Source: Anaerolineales bacterium (GTDB taxonomy: Bacteria; Chloroflexota; Anaerolineae; Anaerolineales; Villigracilaceae). From it: a stretch of 37,173 nt of DNA. The DNA lies in the NCBI GenBank assembly GCA_013140605.1, contig JABFSL010000098.1:1-37173 (forward strand). Reading direction: 5' to 3'. Shown piece after piece: positions 3,871 to 35,582 of this stretch; position 1 is the first letter of the stretch, and every line of letters begins with the position of its first letter. The position numbers and the translations under genes are program-made. The notes beneath the pieces were generated by a model that was given only the letters and a program-made list of their open reading frames with translations, was not told the DNA's origin and did no database searches.

Positions 3871-4767
3871 ATGAAAAAGATTATCAATTCCATTATTGTA
3901 TTTTCAACTCTCGCGGCTCTCTTCTTAACGGGTTGCGGATCAGCCCCGAAAAGCAGTGACGGCCGTTTGAAAGCGCTCACCTCCACCACCTTTCTGGCAG
4001 ACATCACTCGGAACATTGCAGGCGACCGTATCAGCGTGGACTCTCTGCTGCCTGTTGGCGCAGACCCGCACGCCTATCAAGCCGCGCCGTCTGATGTGGC
4101 GAAGATCGCAGAAAGTAATTTGCTGATCTTGAATGGTTTGGAATATGAGCATTTCATTGAGCCTTTGCTTGAAAATGCCGGGGGTGAGAAACTGATGATC
4201 GAGGCCACAGCAGGCCTAAGTCCAAGAGAAGATGCGGGGAGTATCGATCCGCATATGTGGCTTGATCCAAATCTGGTTGTGACCTATGTCGAAAATATCC
4301 GCGATGGTTTAATTCAAATTGACGCGGGTGGCGCGGAAATATACACAGCCAATGCGGATGCATACATCGCGCAGTTGAAAGAACTCGATCAGTGGATCGT
4401 GGAGCAGGTGAATACAATTCCTGTCGAGCGCCGTTTGCTGGTGACCAATCACGAGGCGGTTGGATATTTTGCGGAGCGTTATGGTTTTGAGGTTGTTGGC
4501 GCGGTTATTCCCAGTATGAGCACGGATGCGGGAACTTCGGCGAAAGGATTGGCTGCGCTGATCGAACAGGTTAAGGCGGCAGGCGCGCCTGCCATTTTTC
4601 TCGGTGAAGTCGAAAACCCTGACCTCGCCAACCAGATTGCATCGGAGACAAATGTAAAAGTTGTGGATAATTTGTATCTTGAGTCGCTGACCGATGGCGC
4701 GCCCGCCGCGACATACATTGATATGATGAAGCATAATGTTATTCAAATCGTGAAAGCTTTGAAGTAA
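3871..4767 (+). CDS. Zinc/manganese ABC transporter substrate-binding lipoprotein (ZnuA/TroA-like)
   Basis: 298 residues with a lipoprotein signal (lipobox LTGC, C22). It belongs to the cluster A-I solute-binding family. Predicted metal ligands are H67 (GADPHAY), H128 (DPHMW) and H194 (TNHEAVGYF). A His at the third position is typical of zinc-type TroA/ZnuA proteins, where manganese-type PsaA/MntC has Glu. The usual His/Asp-rich zinc loop of some ZnuA proteins is absent. It would capture the metal outside the membrane and pass it to the permease at 6302. The ATG follows AAGGGATCATAA. The operon is interrupted behind it by a four-helix-bundle cassette. Confidence 0.92.
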   Translation: MKKIINSIIVFSTLAALFLTGCGSAPKSSDGRLKALTSTTFLADITRNIAGDRISVDSLLPVGADPHAYQAAPSDVAKIAESNLLILNGLEYEHFIEPLLENAGGEKLMIEATAGLSPREDAGSIDPHMWLDPNLVVTYVENIRDGLIQIDAGGAEIYTANADAYIAQLKELDQWIVEQVNTIPVERRLLVTNHEAVGYFAERYGFEVVGAVIPSMSTDAGTSAKGLAALIEQVKAAGAPAIFLGEVENPDLANQIASETNVKVVDNLYLESLTDGAPAATYIDMMKHNVIQIVKALK

Positions 4768-5217
4768 GATTAACATCGATTTACGATTTACGATTGATGA
4801 TTTACGATTGCCTCTACAGATTGCTCTAATTGATGAGTTGTAAAAGGAGAATAACATGGATGAAAAAGCCTTTAAAGCTAGAACGAAAAAATTGGCTGTT
4901 GCGATCATCAAGCAAGTTGACAAACTTCCGCGGTCTCTTGCGACGGATGTAATCGCAAAGCAGCTTATACGGTCAGGCACATCCATCGGAGCGAACTATC
5001 GTGCGGCGTGCCGCGCTAAATCAACTCCTGATATGATCAATAAATTGAAAATCGTTGAAGAGGAGAGTGATGAAACAGAATACTGGCTCGAACTTCTAAC
5101 AGAAGCAGGGCTGACTCCTCGAGATCAAGTCGCGGATATTTACAAAGAAACGGACGAAATCCTCTCCATGACCATTGCCTCCATTAAGACCCTCCGCGCT
5201 CATAAATCGTAAATCAA
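4768..5217 (+). mobile_element. Four-helix-bundle gene cassette with inverted-repeat ends (intact copy)
   Basis: The segment between the substrate-binding protein stop codon and the ATPase start codon is bounded by GATTTACGATTTA (4778-4790) and its exact complement TAAATCGTAAATC (5203-5215). Additional GATTTACGATT words follow on the left side (to 4810). The right repeat contains the stop codon of the enclosed gene and ends 2 nt before the ATPase ATG. A related cassette occurs in the next intergenic position of the same operon. That it is mobile is inference: no transposase is encoded and no target-site duplication is evident. Confidence 0.55.
4856..5212 (+). CDS. Four-helix-bundle protein (S23/23S rRNA IVS-protein family)
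   Basis: 118 residues, matching the S23/IVS four-helix-bundle family: RSLATDVIAKQLIRSGTSIG near residues 26-45, followed by ANYRAACRA, is the family hallmark. EYWLELLTEAGL opens the last part. Relatives are encoded inside intervening sequences of 23S rRNA and include the Avd accessory protein of diversity-generating retroelements. The molecular role of stand-alone members is not established. A Shine-Dalgarno (AAAGGAG) precedes the ATG. The gene is a foreign body in a metal transporter operon, between binding protein and ATPase, and its stop codon lies inside a terminal inverted repeat. No reverse transcriptase is nearby, so a retroelement role is unlikely. Confidence 0.9.
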   Translation: MDEKAFKARTKKLAVAIIKQVDKLPRSLATDVIAKQLIRSGTSIGANYRAACRAKSTPDMINKLKIVEEESDETEYWLELLTEAGLTPRDQVADIYKETDEILSMTIASIKTLRAHKS

Positions 5218-6012
5218 ATGACTCACACACCTCACCGTCTTGAAGTTGAAAACGCCAGCATTGGTTATGGCGAAAAAATAATCATGCGCGACTTGAGTTT
5301 TCAAGTGCCGCATGGCGCGCGCGTGGCCGTGGTCGGACCGAACGGAGCGGGCAAATCCACGTTGTTCAAAGCGCTGGTTGGAATTTTGCCGCTGAAAAGC
5401 GGACAGATCATCATCCACGGTGAATCACTTGGTACACATAAAGATTGTGTGGCCTATGTGCCTCAGCGCGAAGATGTGGATTGGCGATTCCCCGTCACGG
5501 TCAGTGATGTAGTGATGATGGGGCGCTTCGGTCAAATGGGATGGTGGAGTCAACCATCAAAAACGGATAAGCAGATCGTTCGCAAAAGTATTGAGCAAAT
5601 GGGAATTACCGATCTGGCAGACCTGTCCATTGGTCAGCTTTCTGGCGGACAACAGCAGCGTGCTTTCCTAGCCCGTGCGCTGGCACAGGAGCCGCACATC
5701 TTATTAATGGATGAACCCTTTACCGGCGTGGATGCGACCACACAGGAAGTGACGTTCGGCTTGCTTGATCACCTTCGTGAGAAGATGGTCACAGCCATTA
5801 TTTCAACGCACGATCTCAATCTGGCCGCATCACGCTTTGATCTTGTGCTCTTGATCAACCACCGTCTCATTGCATATGGTACACCGCAACAAGTTTTTAC
5901 CAGGGAAAATTTGGCATCTGCGTTTGGTAATTCATTACTCGTCATGGAAAATGGGATGATGCTGGTGGATGAGTGCTGCCCACCGGAAGAGCAATTTACG
6001 ATTAACGATTGA
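5218..6012 (+). CDS. Zinc/manganese ABC transporter ATP-binding protein
   Basis: 264 residues with a complete ABC signature: Walker A GPNGAGKST (40-48), Q-loop VPQRE (81-85), LSGGQQQR (141-148), Walker B ILLMDEP (161-167) and switch His198 (STHD). It powers import of the metal delivered by the lipoprotein at 3871. There is no Shine-Dalgarno; the ATG lies 5 nt after the stop codon of the four-helix-bundle gene, so translational coupling is likely. The last residues before the stop (FTIND) are encoded by GATTTACGATT-like repeat sequence, so the second cassette seems to have replaced the native 3' end of the gene. Confidence 0.93.
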   Translation: MTHTPHRLEVENASIGYGEKIIMRDLSFQVPHGARVAVVGPNGAGKSTLFKALVGILPLKSGQIIIHGESLGTHKDCVAYVPQREDVDWRFPVTVSDVVMMGRFGQMGWWSQPSKTDKQIVRKSIEQMGITDLADLSIGQLSGGQQQRAFLARALAQEPHILLMDEPFTGVDATTQEVTFGLLDHLREKMVTAIISTHDLNLAASRFDLVLLINHRLIAYGTPQQVFTRENLASAFGNSLLVMENGMMLVDECCPPEEQFTIND

Positions 6013-6301
6013 TGGACAATTCACGATTTACGATTGGGGATTGGGGATTTGCGATTGTTTGATGATCGTGGTTGCTTGTAAAGATTATCTCGACTGATGA
6101 GTTATAAAAGGAAAATGGCATGGATGAAAAAAACTTCAAGGCAATAACAAAAAAACTGGCTGAGGCAGGGTTGGTTTCCAAAAATCAAATCGCAGATATT
6201 TACAAAGAGACTGACGAAATCCTATCCATGATCATCGCCCCGATCAAAACCCTGCGTGCCCGTCCACAATCCAAAATCGTAAATCCAAAATCGTAAATCC
6301 C
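5992..6301 (+). mobile_element. Second four-helix-bundle cassette, internally deleted
   Basis: The left edge (TTTACGATTAACGATTGATGG, then CACGATTTACGATTG and GGGGATTTGCGATTG) overlaps the end of the ATPase gene. The right edge has two copies of AAATCGTAAATCC and ends next to the permease ATG. The leader GATGAGTTATAAAAGG and the start of the ORF match the first cassette (GATGAGTTGTAAAAGG). The interior lacks most of the gene. Confidence 0.5.
6120..6296 (+). pseudogene. In-frame deleted four-helix-bundle gene (58 codons)
   Basis: The ORF starts MDEKNFKAITKKLAEAGLVS and continues KNQIADIYKETDEILSM. Its first 14 residues align with residues 1-14 of the intact protein at 4856 and the rest aligns with residues 83 onward. 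About 68 codons, including the RSGTSIG hallmark, are therefore missing without loss of frame. The last residues (SKIVNPKS) are read from the right terminal repeat. The product could not form the four-helix bundle. It may persist because its reading frame lets ribosomes reach the permease gene 5 nt downstream, which has no Shine-Dalgarno; that is inference. Confidence 0.75.
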
Positions 6302-7120
6302 ATGAATTTTCTTCTCGAGCCTCTCACTTATCAATTCATGCAGCGCGGACTTTTCGCCTCAGTCATTGTCGGCGTGCTGTGCGCCGTGATGGGAACTTAT
6401 GTTGTTCTGCGCGGCATGGCTTTTCTGGGTGACGCCATGGCGCACGCGATCCTGCCGGGGGTGGCGATCGCTTATTTATTACAGGGCAATCTGCTCGTCG
6501 GCGCGGGAGTGGCAGCGGTCATCGTCGCCCTGAGCATTGGACTATTCTCACGCGAAGGCGTGGTCAAGGAAGATACTGCCATCGGAATTTTATTTGCGGC
6601 GGCGCTCTCACTGGGCGTAGCGTTGATCAGCTCCATGCAAACCTATGCTGTTGACTTATCCCATATTTTGTTCGGTAATGTATTGGGGGTCAACAGTTCT
6701 GACCTTTGGATGATCGCAATCCTTAGTTTTATGATCCTGCTAACGGTTGGATTATTCTTCAAACAATTCCTGGTCATCTCTTTTGACCCCGTTCTTGCTG
6801 CGACCTTGCGCCTGCCGGCTGAACTGTTACGGAATCTGATGCTGGTGCTTTTGGCGTTGACCGTTGTGGTCTCCCTACAAACGGTGGGCGTCAGCCTCGC
6901 CGCCGCCATGTTGGTGACTCCCGCCGCAACAGCCTATTTACTAACACGAAGATTATTGCCCATGATGCTGGTATCTGCATTGATCGGCGCGTTATCATCA
7001 GTCATCGGTTTATATTTGAGTTATTACCTGAACATTGTTTCAGGCTCCACCATAGTACTAACGGCCACCGCGTTTTTCCTGTTCGCCTTCTTATGGAAGA
7101 GAATAAAATCCAAGCAATAA
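6302..7120 (+). CDS. Zinc/manganese ABC transporter permease (ABC-3 family, ZnuB-like)
   Basis: 272 residues, almost wholly hydrophobic, with about eight membrane helices. The N-terminal part with VVLRGMAFLGDAMAHAILPG is the conserved segment of the ABC-3 family (ZnuB, MntB, TroC), and VVSLQTVGVSLAAAMLVTPA carries the cytoplasmic EAA-like coupling region. It forms the membrane channel for the ATPase at 5218 and the binding protein at 3871. The start ATG comes directly after the right repeat of the deleted four-helix cassette and has no Shine-Dalgarno. The transporter appears complete: binding protein, ATPase and permease. Confidence 0.93.
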   Translation: MNFLLEPLTYQFMQRGLFASVIVGVLCAVMGTYVVLRGMAFLGDAMAHAILPGVAIAYLLQGNLLVGAGVAAVIVALSIGLFSREGVVKEDTAIGILFAAALSLGVALISSMQTYAVDLSHILFGNVLGVNSSDLWMIAILSFMILLTVGLFFKQFLVISFDPVLAATLRLPAELLRNLMLVLLALTVVVSLQTVGVSLAAAMLVTPAATAYLLTRRLLPMMLVSALIGALSSVIGLYLSYYLNIVSGSTIVLTATAFFLFAFLWKRIKSKQ

Positions 7121-27289: not shown

Positions 27290-27433
27290 AAGAAACTACA
27301 GGGCAATAAAGATCGGGACAAACTTGTCATAAGGGAACTAAGAAAAATGGGCTGGAAAATTATCCGCGTCTGGGAACATGAACTCAAACACCCATCAAAG
27401 GTTGCCGCAAAGTTACTTCGTCATCTTTCATAA
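27290..27433 (+). pseudogene. C-terminal remnant of a Vsr-like endonuclease
   Basis: The frame carries NKDRDKLVIRELRKMGWKII then RVWEHEL, which matches the C-terminal half of very-short-patch repair endonucleases (N..RD..v...L...GW.ii.vWE.el). The N-terminal catalytic half (normally about 90 residues more, with the Asp and zinc site) is missing, and no start codon or ribosome-binding site is fitted to this remnant. It is best read as a relic of a lost DNA-cytosine methylation or restriction system. A DUF559-type endonuclease tail is the main alternative. Confidence 0.6.
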
Positions 27434-27535
27434 TTCATCCTTCATCATTCATCCTTCATCCCTCATCACTTTTCACTCCCCACCACCCACCATTCACTAT
27501 CTCCCCATCCACCACCCACTGATTCATGCTAAACT
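27434..27535 (+). repeat. Pyrimidine-rich TTCATCC / CACCCAC word repeats
   Basis: After the Vsr stump come ATTCATCC, TTCATC, ATTCATCC, TTCATCCC, then CACCACCCACC and CACCACCCACTGA. This low-complexity, C/T/A-only block fills the gap to the decarboxylase promoter region and marks the right border of the A+T-rich island. Confidence 0.6.
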
Positions 27536-33376: not shown

Positions 33377-33390
33377 GAATTTCTCCATGA

Positions 33391-33396
33391 TAAAAT
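33391..33396 (+). promoter_or_regulatory. -10-like box for a possible leaderless start
   Basis: TAAAAT ends 8 nt before ATG 33405. No Shine-Dalgarno is present. Confidence 0.35.
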
Positions 33397-33404
33397 CCAC
33401 CCCT

Positions 33405-35582
33405 ATGACTCACGCAGAACAGATCGCATCCCAACTAAAAGTCAAGCCGTCGCAAGTTACGGCTGTCATCAATCTTTTAGACGAAGGCAACACCGTTCCA
33501 TTCATTGCCCGTTACCGCAAGGAAATGACAGGCTCGCTCGACGACGAACAGATCCGCATCATCGCCGATGAACTCATCCGTTTGCGCGGACTCGACGAAC
33601 GCCGAGTCTCCATCCTTGCTTCCATCGAAGAGCAGGGCAAACTCACCGATGAATTACGCGACAGCATCAACGCTGCCGTCACCATGACCGCACTCGAAGA
33701 CCTATACGCGCCCTATAAAAAGAAACGCCGCACACGCGCCATGGTCGCACGCGAAAAGGGACTGGAACCGCTTGCTGACTTAATTTTGAAACAAGCTTCT
33801 GACTCACCCGAAGAAGCTGCAAAGCAATTTATCAACGATCAAGTCTCCAGCATCGAAGAAGCCTTGCAAGGCGCACGTGACATCGTCGCTGAAATGATCA
33901 GCGACAACGCCAACGTCCGCGCGGCGACCCGTGAGAAGGCGCTCAAGTTCGGCAAAGTCCGCGTGGAGAAGATCAAAGACGCCGTGGATGAAAAAGCCGT
34001 TTACGAATCCTATTATGAATTCGAAGGCAACGTTAACAGATTCATGCCGCATCAAATTCTCGCCATCACCCGCGGCGAAAAGGAAGGCGTTCTGCGCGTG
34101 CATGTGGATGTCCCTGAACGCGACTGGCTGAATGCCATTCAAGCTGAATTTGAAGAAGATATCATCAGTCCCTTCGCGGAACAACTTGAACTTGCGATTC
34201 AAGATTCCGCTGAAAGACTATTACTCCCCGCCATCGAACGCGATGTCCGCCGTGAGAAAGGCGAAGTCGCAGATAACCACGCCATTCAAGTCTTCGCCAC
34301 CAACCTGCGTGCCCTGCTGGGGCAGGCCCCGCTTGCTAATCAAGTTGTGCTCGGCCTCGACCCTGGCTTCCGCACAGGCTGCAAAGTTGCCGTCGTGGAC
34401 GCCACTGGCAAACTGCTTGACACAGGTACGATCTATCCGCACGAGCCGAAGAACGATTGGAAGGGTTCGATCAACACTCTGCAGGATATGATCAACCGCC
34501 ATCACGTCACGCTCATCACCATCGGCAACGGCACCGCTTCACGGGAGACGGAGAAGCTCGCTGCCGAAGTAATCAGTGGTCTCGATACGGCGAAAGAGCA
34601 TCGCCTACTCGACCACCAACGCAACACGCAACATGCAACAAAGTATTTGATTGTCAATGAAGCGGGCGCATCGGTTTATTCCGCATCTTCTCTCGCCCGC
34701 GCCGAATTCCCCGATCTCGATGTCACCATTCGCGGCGCGGTTTCCATTGCACGCCGCGCGCAAGATCCGCTCGCCGAGCTCGTCAAGATCGATCCCAAGT
34801 CCATTGGCGTGGGCATGTACCAGCACGATGTCGATCAAACCGCGCTCACGCACGCTCTCGATGGCGTGGTCGAAAGCGTGGTCAACAGCGTTGGCGTGGA
34901 TGTCAACACCGCCAGTTCCGCGCTGCTGACGCATGTCGCGGGCATCGGCCCAAAACTCGCCACCAACATCGTCACTCATCGCGACGCGAACGGCCCTTTC
35001 AAATCCCGCACCGCATTGAAGAAGGTCGCTGGGCTTGGCCCGAAGGCTTTTGAACAGGCAGCAGGCTTCATGCGGATTCGAAATGGGGCGAACCCATTGG
35101 ATGAATCTGCGATCCATCCAGAATCCTACGCGATCGCAGAATCCATTCTCGCTCGCGCCGCGCTGACAGTTGATTCGTCCATCCCAGACAGAATCGCCGC
35201 CTTGGAATCCCTCACCTCAAAAACTCCGCTCGAAACATTAGCCGCCGAACTCGAATGCGGCGTGCCCACACTCAAAGACATCCTCGAACAACTCGTCCGC
35301 CCAGGTCGTGACCCACGTTCCGATACCCCCGCTCCCATCCTGCGCTCAGATGTGCTCAAAGCTGAAGACCTGCTGACAGGTATGCAACTCAAAGGCACAG
35401 TCCGCAACGTGGTGGACTTCGGCGCCTTTGTAGACATCGGACTCAAAGGTGATGGCTTGTTACATAAATCTCAAATCCCGTTCGGAACAGTCTTGAAGGT
35501 CGGCGATATCATAGATGTGGAGATCGTCAAGATCGAAACCGAACGCGGACGTATTGGTCTTGGCTGGGTGAAGACCTCATAA
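33405..35582 (+). CDS. tex: Transcription accessory protein Tex
   Basis: 725 residues from ATG 33405 (731 if the ATG at 33387 is used). N-terminal Tex helical domain with GNTVPFIARYRKEMTGSLDD; a YqgF-like RNase H-fold domain with LGLDPGFRTGCKVAVVD; helix-hairpin-helix region VAGIGPKLATNIV and VAGLGPKAFEQAAGF; and a C-terminal S1 RNA-binding domain (GTVRNVVDFGAFVDIGLKGD). The domain order and length match Tex/YhgF. The protein binds RNA and affects transcription in other bacteria. It is followed by palindromic repeats and terminators. Confidence 0.94.
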   Translation: MTHAEQIASQLKVKPSQVTAVINLLDEGNTVPFIARYRKEMTGSLDDEQIRIIADELIRLRGLDERRVSILASIEEQGKLTDELRDSINAAVTMTALEDLYAPYKKKRRTRAMVAREKGLEPLADLILKQASDSPEEAAKQFINDQVSSIEEALQGARDIVAEMISDNANVRAATREKALKFGKVRVEKIKDAVDEKAVYESYYEFEGNVNRFMPHQILAITRGEKEGVLRVHVDVPERDWLNAIQAEFEEDIISPFAEQLELAIQDSAERLLLPAIERDVRREKGEVADNHAIQVFATNLRALLGQAPLANQVVLGLDPGFRTGCKVAVVDATGKLLDTGTIYPHEPKNDWKGSINTLQDMINRHHVTLITIGNGTASRETEKLAAEVISGLDTAKEHRLLDHQRNTQHATKYLIVNEAGASVYSASSLARAEFPDLDVTIRGAVSIARRAQDPLAELVKIDPKSIGVGMYQHDVDQTALTHALDGVVESVVNSVGVDVNTASSALLTHVAGIGPKLATNIVTHRDANGPFKSRTALKKVAGLGPKAFEQAAGFMRIRNGANPLDESAIHPESYAIAESILARAALTVDSSIPDRIAALESLTSKTPLETLAAELECGVPTLKDILEQLVRPGRDPRSDTPAPILRSDVLKAEDLLTGMQLKGTVRNVVDFGAFVDIGLKGDGLLHKSQIPFGTVLKVGDIIDVEIVKIETERGRIGLGWVKTS

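Follow-up and report, generated by a model that had tools for sequence, protein, structure and literature searches.

What kind of element would place a four-helix-bundle gene between inverted repeats at two successive junctions of one metal-uptake operon? The locus lies in the window, the whole stretch of 37,173 nucleotides analyzed here, from an Anaerolineales bacterium of the Villigracilaceae (assembly GCA_013140605.1, contig JABFSL010000098.1). A first-pass annotation had proposed that it holds elements resembling the intervening sequences (IVSs) of 23S rRNA, sited at junctions of a protein operon.

Two cassettes in one metal-uptake operon

The operon contains, on the forward strand, genes for a Zn/Mn-type substrate-binding lipoprotein of the ZnuA family (3871..4767; PF01297, 1.3e-79), a metal ABC transporter ATPase (5218..6012; PF00005), and an ABC-3 family permease (6302..7120; PF00950, 2e-77). 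Element 1 (4768..5217, forward strand) fills the whole 450-bp gap from the stop codon of the binding-protein gene to the ATPase ATG. It has a 5' arm of five GATT anchors at a 7-nt pitch, GATTTACGATTTACGATTGATGATTTACGATT (4778..4809, forward strand), and a short 3' arm of two anchors, which is the inverse of the 5' arm (5203..5215, reverse strand); the arms are inward-facing GATTNNN heptads. Between them is an open reading frame (ORF) of 118 amino acids (4856..5212, forward strand), preceded by a Shine-Dalgarno-like AAAGGAG, which matches the S23 or 23S_rRNA_IVP four-helix-bundle family in both PF05635 (4.3e-19; 69.1 bits, with a cutoff of 33.8) and TIGR02436 (1.5e-26; 92.7 bits, with a cutoff of 24). 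An intact S23/IVS-type gene with inverted-repeat ends, as the first-pass annotation had read it, is thus present between the binding protein and the ATPase. Its stop codon lies within the 3' arm, 5 nt ahead of the ATPase ATG; therefore, translation can continue and the host operon stays usable. Allowing two mismatches, GATTTACGATTTA has 14 matches in the window, with 0.87 expected and a maximum of 4 in 100 shuffles. Thirteen of them are within 4778-6299, where the match at 5041-5053 lies within the S23 coding sequence and belongs to neither arm.

S23 was the only gene recognized between the arms in the window, and no transposase domain was found there. Rfam gave no match on the window, and the 23S rRNA location was not met. 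We discarded a defense system, for which PADLOC gave no match. In the predicted RNA fold the two arms of element 1 pair with each other, and the whole element is modestly more stable than its shuffles (z of -1.48, with 8 of 100 shuffles as good), a value too weak to keep a strong fold of the whole RNA as a candidate.

Element 2 (6013-6301) occupies the junction between ATPase and permease. Its 5' heptads (5993..6056, forward strand) include a five-anchor array at 6025-6056 and start within the ATPase gene, so that the final codons of the ATPase (..EEQFTIND) are encoded by the element; this heptad tail replaces a His-rich tail that is present in empty-site species. The RNA of this 5' part has a z of -0.76. 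The ORF at 6120..6296 (forward strand) has 58 codons and no Pfam or NCBIfam match. It is nevertheless an S23 remnant with an internal in-frame deletion, in which the start and the end of the protein are fused and the middle is missing; in tblastn, S23 residues 81-115 align at 77%. The 3' arm (6268..6299, reverse strand), just ahead of the permease ATG at 6302, is longer than that of element 1, with five anchors instead of two. A second, related cassette had been proposed at this junction; it is present and related, but its gene is decayed. The observation that each cassette finishes at the next start also held, with element 1 ending at 5217 and element 2 at 6301 and an ATG directly after each.

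Heptad arms, their words, and the S23 fold

We scanned a species-level genome collection and took the best 80 of 574 S23 relatives as named loci, a set that leans toward the query because only these were kept. One locus with a short flank (L119) was left out of flank scoring. In the remaining 79 loci from these best 80 of 574, the self-match at lag 7 was 13.5 in 5' flanks and 14.1 in 3' flanks, compared with 3.84 in 2,091 control windows. Lag 8 was slightly raised (4.5 and 4.1, compared with 3.6), and lags 4 to 6 and 9 to 13 showed no rise in the S23 flanks. The inverted repeat between the flanks exceeded the control 99th percentile at 61 of the 79 loci. For the lag-7 score, the 99th percentile of the controls is high (14) because the control windows themselves contain arrays, and only 35% of 5' flanks and 39% of 3' flanks exceeded it. 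With a score of at least 8, a 5' arm was found at 60 of the 79 loci, a 3' arm at 57, either at 73, and both at 44; the same score was reached by 58 of 1,970 control windows (2.9%) and by 5.8% of random window pairs. When distinct S23 loci were pooled, with duplicates and short flanks removed, 161 of 173 had at least one arm at this score and 120 had both, leaving 12 armless by threshold.

The same holds outside the named set. Three cyanobacterial genomes, reached via the named loci, gave 22 S23 matches, and heptad arrays, many of them perfect, were found in the flanks of most of the 21 that could be scored. A family-wide search with one cyanobacterial S23 gene found an arm at 29 of 30 loci. 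No rRNA was found near S23 in the 20 of the 80 named loci that were scanned for it. The unit of an S23 gene with heptad arms is real and general.

Within the genome of the window, an array was found in the flank of seven of the nine scored S23 genes, the split gene L010/L011 having been left out. The first-pass annotation had expected the repeats of the window around other S23 genes. Taken literally this failed, since GATTTAC arms are found at no other S23 gene of this genome, and a single repeat common to all of them was discarded; what stood is that each gene has a heptad word of its own. What comes closest in this genome is a GATT array with six anchors of a variant word, 1,169 bp from the S23 gene of L003.

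Some loci had unusual surroundings. A selenocysteine tRNA gene precedes the S23 gene in two Acidobacteria, with about 55 to 60 nt between the tRNA gene and the S23 start (L108, 2852-2946; L117, 2848-2942). A distant S23 gene in genome G080 (L268, 2809-3174) has a strong upstream AATCGCA array (score of 42) in another context. At 1070-2626 of L080 (genome G038), the S23 frame has no stop and continues across the heptads into a gene resembling an aminotransferase, which predicts a fusion protein of 519 amino acids.

We compared the words of the arms with each other and with the proteins that they enclose, keeping 140 unique proteins of 171 elements. For the 95 elements with both arms, the mean distance between the 5' word and the reverse complement of the 3' word was 1.00, compared with 2.91 when the pairing was shuffled (minimum in 200 shuffles, 2.67) and 3.47 in direct orientation. 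Between elements, the word distance grew as the identity of the S23 proteins fell, from 0.51 at 80 to 95% identity to 1.01 at 70 to 80%, 1.97 at 60 to 70%, 2.71 at 50 to 60%, 2.94 at 45 to 50%, and 3.1 to 3.4, the background level, below that. Simple co-inheritance predicts such a trend, which is compatible with coevolution of protein and word but is no proof of it.

The length of the arms has one peak. The median of 203 arms was 33 nt (arms below a score of 12 were left out), with 71 arms of 30 to 33 nt and 91 of 28 to 34 nt, and an arm of 30 to 33 nt corresponds to five anchors of 4 to 5 nt at a 7-nt pitch. Among GATT-anchored arrays in loci of the genus, 30 had four copies, 37 had five, and 10 had six; three-copy arrays were at chance level as judged by control anchors. 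The AlphaFold2 model of the element 1 protein (pLDDT of 96.8) has four helices. Its best match in the PDB was 2rld_E, with a TM score of 0.84 by query and 0.91 by target, and its 10 best matches were chains A to E of 2RLD and 2GSC, followed by Avd (4DWL); chains of a diversity-generating retroelement (DGR) ribonucleoprotein and the Avd of the Bordetella phage DGR were also among the matches. 2RLD consists of five chains of one sequence. By analogy with these structures, we infer that the S23 protein may form a ring of five that reads five heptads, although the assembly of the protein of the window itself has not been shown.

Occupied sites, empty sites, and solo arrays

An ATPase search of relatives gave matches with E values of at most 1e-60 in 50 of 61 genomes. 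We read the junctions by eye at 25 loci, of which 23 belong to the 30 retrieved by this search and two are additional, so the following are hand counts; two of the 25 (G036 and G016) represent a second, divergent metal operon. The junction of binding protein and ATPase was readable in 21 loci. It held an intact S23 unit in three, a decayed one in one, S23-less arrays of at least three copies in five, a two-copy trace in one, and no GATT array in 11, one of which (G012) has an array of another word. The junction of ATPase and permease held an intact unit in three of the 25 loci (one with an internal stop), a decayed one in two, arrays only in three, and no array in 17, and S23 was also seen there in further genomes outside the 25 loci. 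Two ORF-less hairpin versions had RNA folds with z values of -3.63 and -3.16. At the second junction, comparison with sister species shows host sequence replaced, not cleanly split. No clear target-site duplication was found by eye at the junctions of the 25 loci, and neither an insertion event nor an excised form was seen.

A similar picture was obtained at carA-carB. The CarB N terminus was matched in 20 of 57 genomes, and an S23 unit lies just upstream in five of them. In G022, 2 nt separate carA from carB, and the carA frame extends to the carB start in G066, G004, and G023; the carA tail was not recognized in 4 of the 20 loci, one of which has S23. Had all relatives been occupied, the idea of an inserted element would have been refuted, but S23-free junctions were found at both places in the metal operon and at carA-carB. 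The presence of units and solo arrays at the same sites varies between species. We also noted that S23-less carA-carB junctions in L305, L307, and L314 are occupied by a dispersed repeat whose ends resemble GGTGGTCGAGTAG, and that the GGTGGTCGAGTAG-ended repeat adjoins several solo heptad arrays (L024, L027, L033, L034, and L037).

The position of the units relative to genes was again scored in the named loci, the best 80 of 574. A codirectional start followed within 60 nt of the 3' arm in 45 of 55 cases and within 12 nt in 30, whereas at control offsets in downstream sequence the counts were 114 and 34 of 220. A codirectional stop was found at most 80 nt upstream of 38 of 56 5' arms, and 4 of the 56 faced an opposite-strand start within 60 nt. 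These counts mean that units tend to occupy stop-start gaps, in sense. The repeat adjoining the start codon, remarked on in the first-pass annotation for the two cassettes of the window, is therefore general, but it may reflect survival and not a choice of landing site. The larger claim, that IVS-like elements with an S23 gene and inverted repeats at their ends exist at junctions of protein operons, was borne out, though insertion has never been observed as an event.

How often the units move is less clear. One S23 cluster is found at ABC-ABC, carA-carB, argJ-argD-like, and MoxR-DUF58-like junctions, among others (gene names read from the sequence). On a tree of 29 S23 proteins, nine context labels required eight changes, the least possible, whereas shuffled labels required 16.2 on average; each context is therefore mostly of single origin, and moves are few. 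A clade with support of 98/89 contains three contexts: ABC, MoxR, and a third. Of the 26 inner branches, 15 are poorly supported, and long branches were flagged. As far as such a tree can tell, movement of the S23 unit is rare, and the number of moves is unsure. Genome G080 carries two copies in one operon, the two-junction pattern of the window; they are 85% identical over 390 aligned nucleotides, the match begins at the 5' array, and the second copy ends at the contig end. S23 genes of three clusters have the same downstream gene in several families and different upstream genes. All S23 genes of the window's cluster that were seen in the genus are in metal ABC operons, at one junction or the other, which could mean function and not mobility; a 63% relative in another family (G039) has a different context.

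Arrays also exist away from S23 genes. In 437 kb of this genome, we found 23 arrays of lag 7 with a score of at least 12; the remaining lags between 4 and 15 gave 0 to 2 each, except for lag 14, a harmonic, with 12. The word of 12 of the 23 is at most one letter from the word of a resident S23 gene (at least 4 of these 12 are S23 flanks), whereas the mean for shuffled words was 3.4 and the highest value in 300 shuffles was 8; the other 11 match no resident S23 word that closely. Solo GATT arrays lie directly 5' of leuD, moeA-like, and HAD-like starts, a solo GATT-word hairpin lies ahead of a nuoJ-like start (all names read from the sequence), and GATT-word arrays are also found in frame within enzymes. 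We rejected the possibility that solo GATT arrays are S23 remnants: in a tblastn search of L013 to L041 with four S23 proteins, none was among the matches listed, and the sites are therefore not visibly decayed genes.

In-frame arrays were followed in a helicase for which 51 of 57 genomes in the genus gave a match. Among 30 loci compared, lag-7 arrays in two of its loops exceeded the 99th percentile of the controls in 21 and 24 loci, respectively (480 control windows, maximum of 8), at the same place with different words in different species. At the first of the two sites, the period in L226 (G080) and L227 (G027) is 8 and not 7, and a second class of array may exist. The window itself has an in-frame heptad array of another word, ACGCAACACGCAACATGCAACA, at 34619-34640 in a Tex-like gene (33387-35582). 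At 27421-27500 it has two tandem heptad words, one of the ATTCATCCTTCATC type and then a CAC-rich one, upstream of a gene for a pyridoxal-dependent decarboxylase (both genes read from the sequence).

Known heptamer repeats and possible explanations

REP/RAYT systems combine a repeat that flanks a gene with solo copies of the repeat scattered in the genome. The units described here share this layout, but they have no transposase domain, and their repeats are period-7 arrays instead of palindromes. Cyanobacterial STRRs are short tandem heptanucleotide repeats, known as repeats only; the link to an S23 gene is drawn here, without comparison to any named STRR word. The DGR protein Avd has the same four-helix-bundle fold, but no reverse transcriptase gene was found on any S23-bearing contig here. 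PF05635 has been noted as Avd-like in the portion of the source that we could consult (PMC10053308).

Two published cases come closer, both known to us from parts of the papers. The 23S rRNA IVS of Coxiella burnetii has two to three GACAGAT heptamers 5' of its S23 ORF, in strain-variable copy number, and a 28-bp terminal stem; heptamers and stem are described in one element, without generalization in the text available (PMC4990558). It shares with our units the S23 ORF, the inverted repeats at its ends, which pair in the RNA, and the heptamers upstream of the ORF. Unlike it, our units have a protein operon as host, heptads that make up both arms, and a word tied to the S23 lineage. TAACTGA direct repeats were described in Beggiatoaceae, Cyanobacteria, and Bacteroidetes, with 169 sets in one Beggiatoaceae genome, mostly ahead of starts. 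In the main genome studied, they have two to six copies, are sometimes within ORFs, and vary between strains; no mechanism was evident, and the identity of the binding protein was left open, with the suggestion that such a protein could itself be the mobile element (MacGregor 2015, PMC4679880). The available text of this paper contains no match for "S23," "four helix," or "intervening." We found TAACTGA bracketing three cyanobacterial S23 genes that are 86 to 100% alike, while a 79% relative has another word at its 3' side and no 5' arm. The heptamer arrays before starts are thus alike in the two studies, and the S23 genes that the word brackets are the difference. Judged from these partial sources, the Coxiella IVS heptamers and the TAACTGA repeats fit a family of S23-heptad elements. 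In the open-license literature, we found no paper besides PMC4990558 that joins S23 and heptads and none that draws the link generally, and as far as searched, the design is undescribed as a system.

What, then, are the two cassettes? We consider it probable, though well short of certain, that they are one intact and one decayed member of a widespread group of IVS-like elements whose pentameric protein recognizes its own five-heptad array; recognition and the chemistry of transfer are inferred. A ring of five S23 subunits, as in the solved structures, would recognize the array with one heptad per subunit. Recognition would probably take place on RNA or a single strand, because the arms are within operon transcripts, can pair, and are dominantly in sense orientation. 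It could allow the unit, or the arms alone, to be copied or recombined into new sites, and survival would then favor intercistronic gaps and tolerant protein loops. The DNA-joining enzyme, whose identity is unknown, would have to be supplied by the host or by a different element, because S23 consists of a four-helix bundle and nothing else. The idea that S23 binds heptads has only correlation between sequences and symmetry behind it, with no binding data, and this recognition and the joining chemistry, both inferred, are the weakest steps.

The same arrays could belong to host regulation. An S23 ring comparable to the TRAP protein would then sit on heptads at start codons and tune translation, with solo arrays as its regulon, its own arms as autoregulation, and ordinary recombination spreading them. 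The 30 of 55 3' arms that end within 12 nt of a start codon and the solo arrays directly ahead of leuD, moeA-like, and HAD-like starts are what this would predict, and translational control was also proposed for the TAACTGA arrays, mostly just 5' of starts, in what we could see of that paper (MacGregor 2015, PMC4679880). Control at start codons makes no sense for in-frame arrays within enzymes, however, sister species differ in sites and words, and 11 of the 23 sampled arrays differ by more than one letter from every resident S23 word, so we regard regulation as unlikely without dismissing it. A role restricted to the metal operon, with S23 as a co-opted subunit or regulator and the arms incidental, would explain why, in the genus, this S23 cluster was found nowhere but in metal ABC operons, at either junction. 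It is hard to reconcile with the many species without S23 at either junction, with the persistence of decayed copies, and with other S23 clades at carA-carB, argJ-argD-like, MoxR-DUF58-like, and ABC-ABC junctions, and we give it almost no credence.

Two further explanations concern how arrays arise. In a retroelement-like process, an Avd-like S23 protein would deliver heptad RNA to a host reverse transcriptase, which would copy arrays elsewhere. The Avd and DGR ribonucleoprotein chains among the structure matches of the model and the sense bias, which fits an RNA step, speak for such a process, but the sole reverse transcriptase match in this genome (PF00078, 38 bits, in a 506-amino-acid ORF) is on contig C95, where the family search found no S23. 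A reverse transcriptase beside an S23 gene was not found in this genome, and we think this process improbable. Slippage alone, with arrays collecting in tolerant spacers and the S23 gene as a bystander, would account for arrays without S23 genes and for their variable copy number. It is very improbable given that 437 kb held 23 lag-7 arrays but 0 to 2 at other lags (12 at the lag-14 harmonic), an excess that points to a process tied to seven, and that the arms around S23 are matched and inverted, have one length peak, and carry a word that follows the protein.

We return to the proposed recognition by the S23 protein of its own heptads. The element works like an IVS-type element outside rRNA and, as an IVS, is a variant, since the rRNA location is not met. 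A broader proposal can be made only tentatively, at slightly under even chances: a repeat-addressing system in which each S23 lineage has a private word, present in about five copies on each side of the gene and in scattered solo copies, and read by a five-membered ring. Such a system would spread via intercistronic gaps and protein loops and would be the common source of rRNA IVSs, cyanobacterial STRRs, and TAACTGA repeats. The first-pass annotation saw the cassettes of the window, and the pattern of S23 and heptads is wider, recurring across bacteria with words of their own. The role of the small, widespread S23 proteins is unknown, and reports of heptamer repeats have so far been piecemeal and without a known partner. 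With the tie between S23 lineage and word, and with arms of the length expected for a ring of five, the role of S23 and the origin of dispersed heptads become one question, and the design may explain scattered 7-letter repeats in genomes. If arrays also move, they would supply operons with new spacers and proteins with in-frame insertions.
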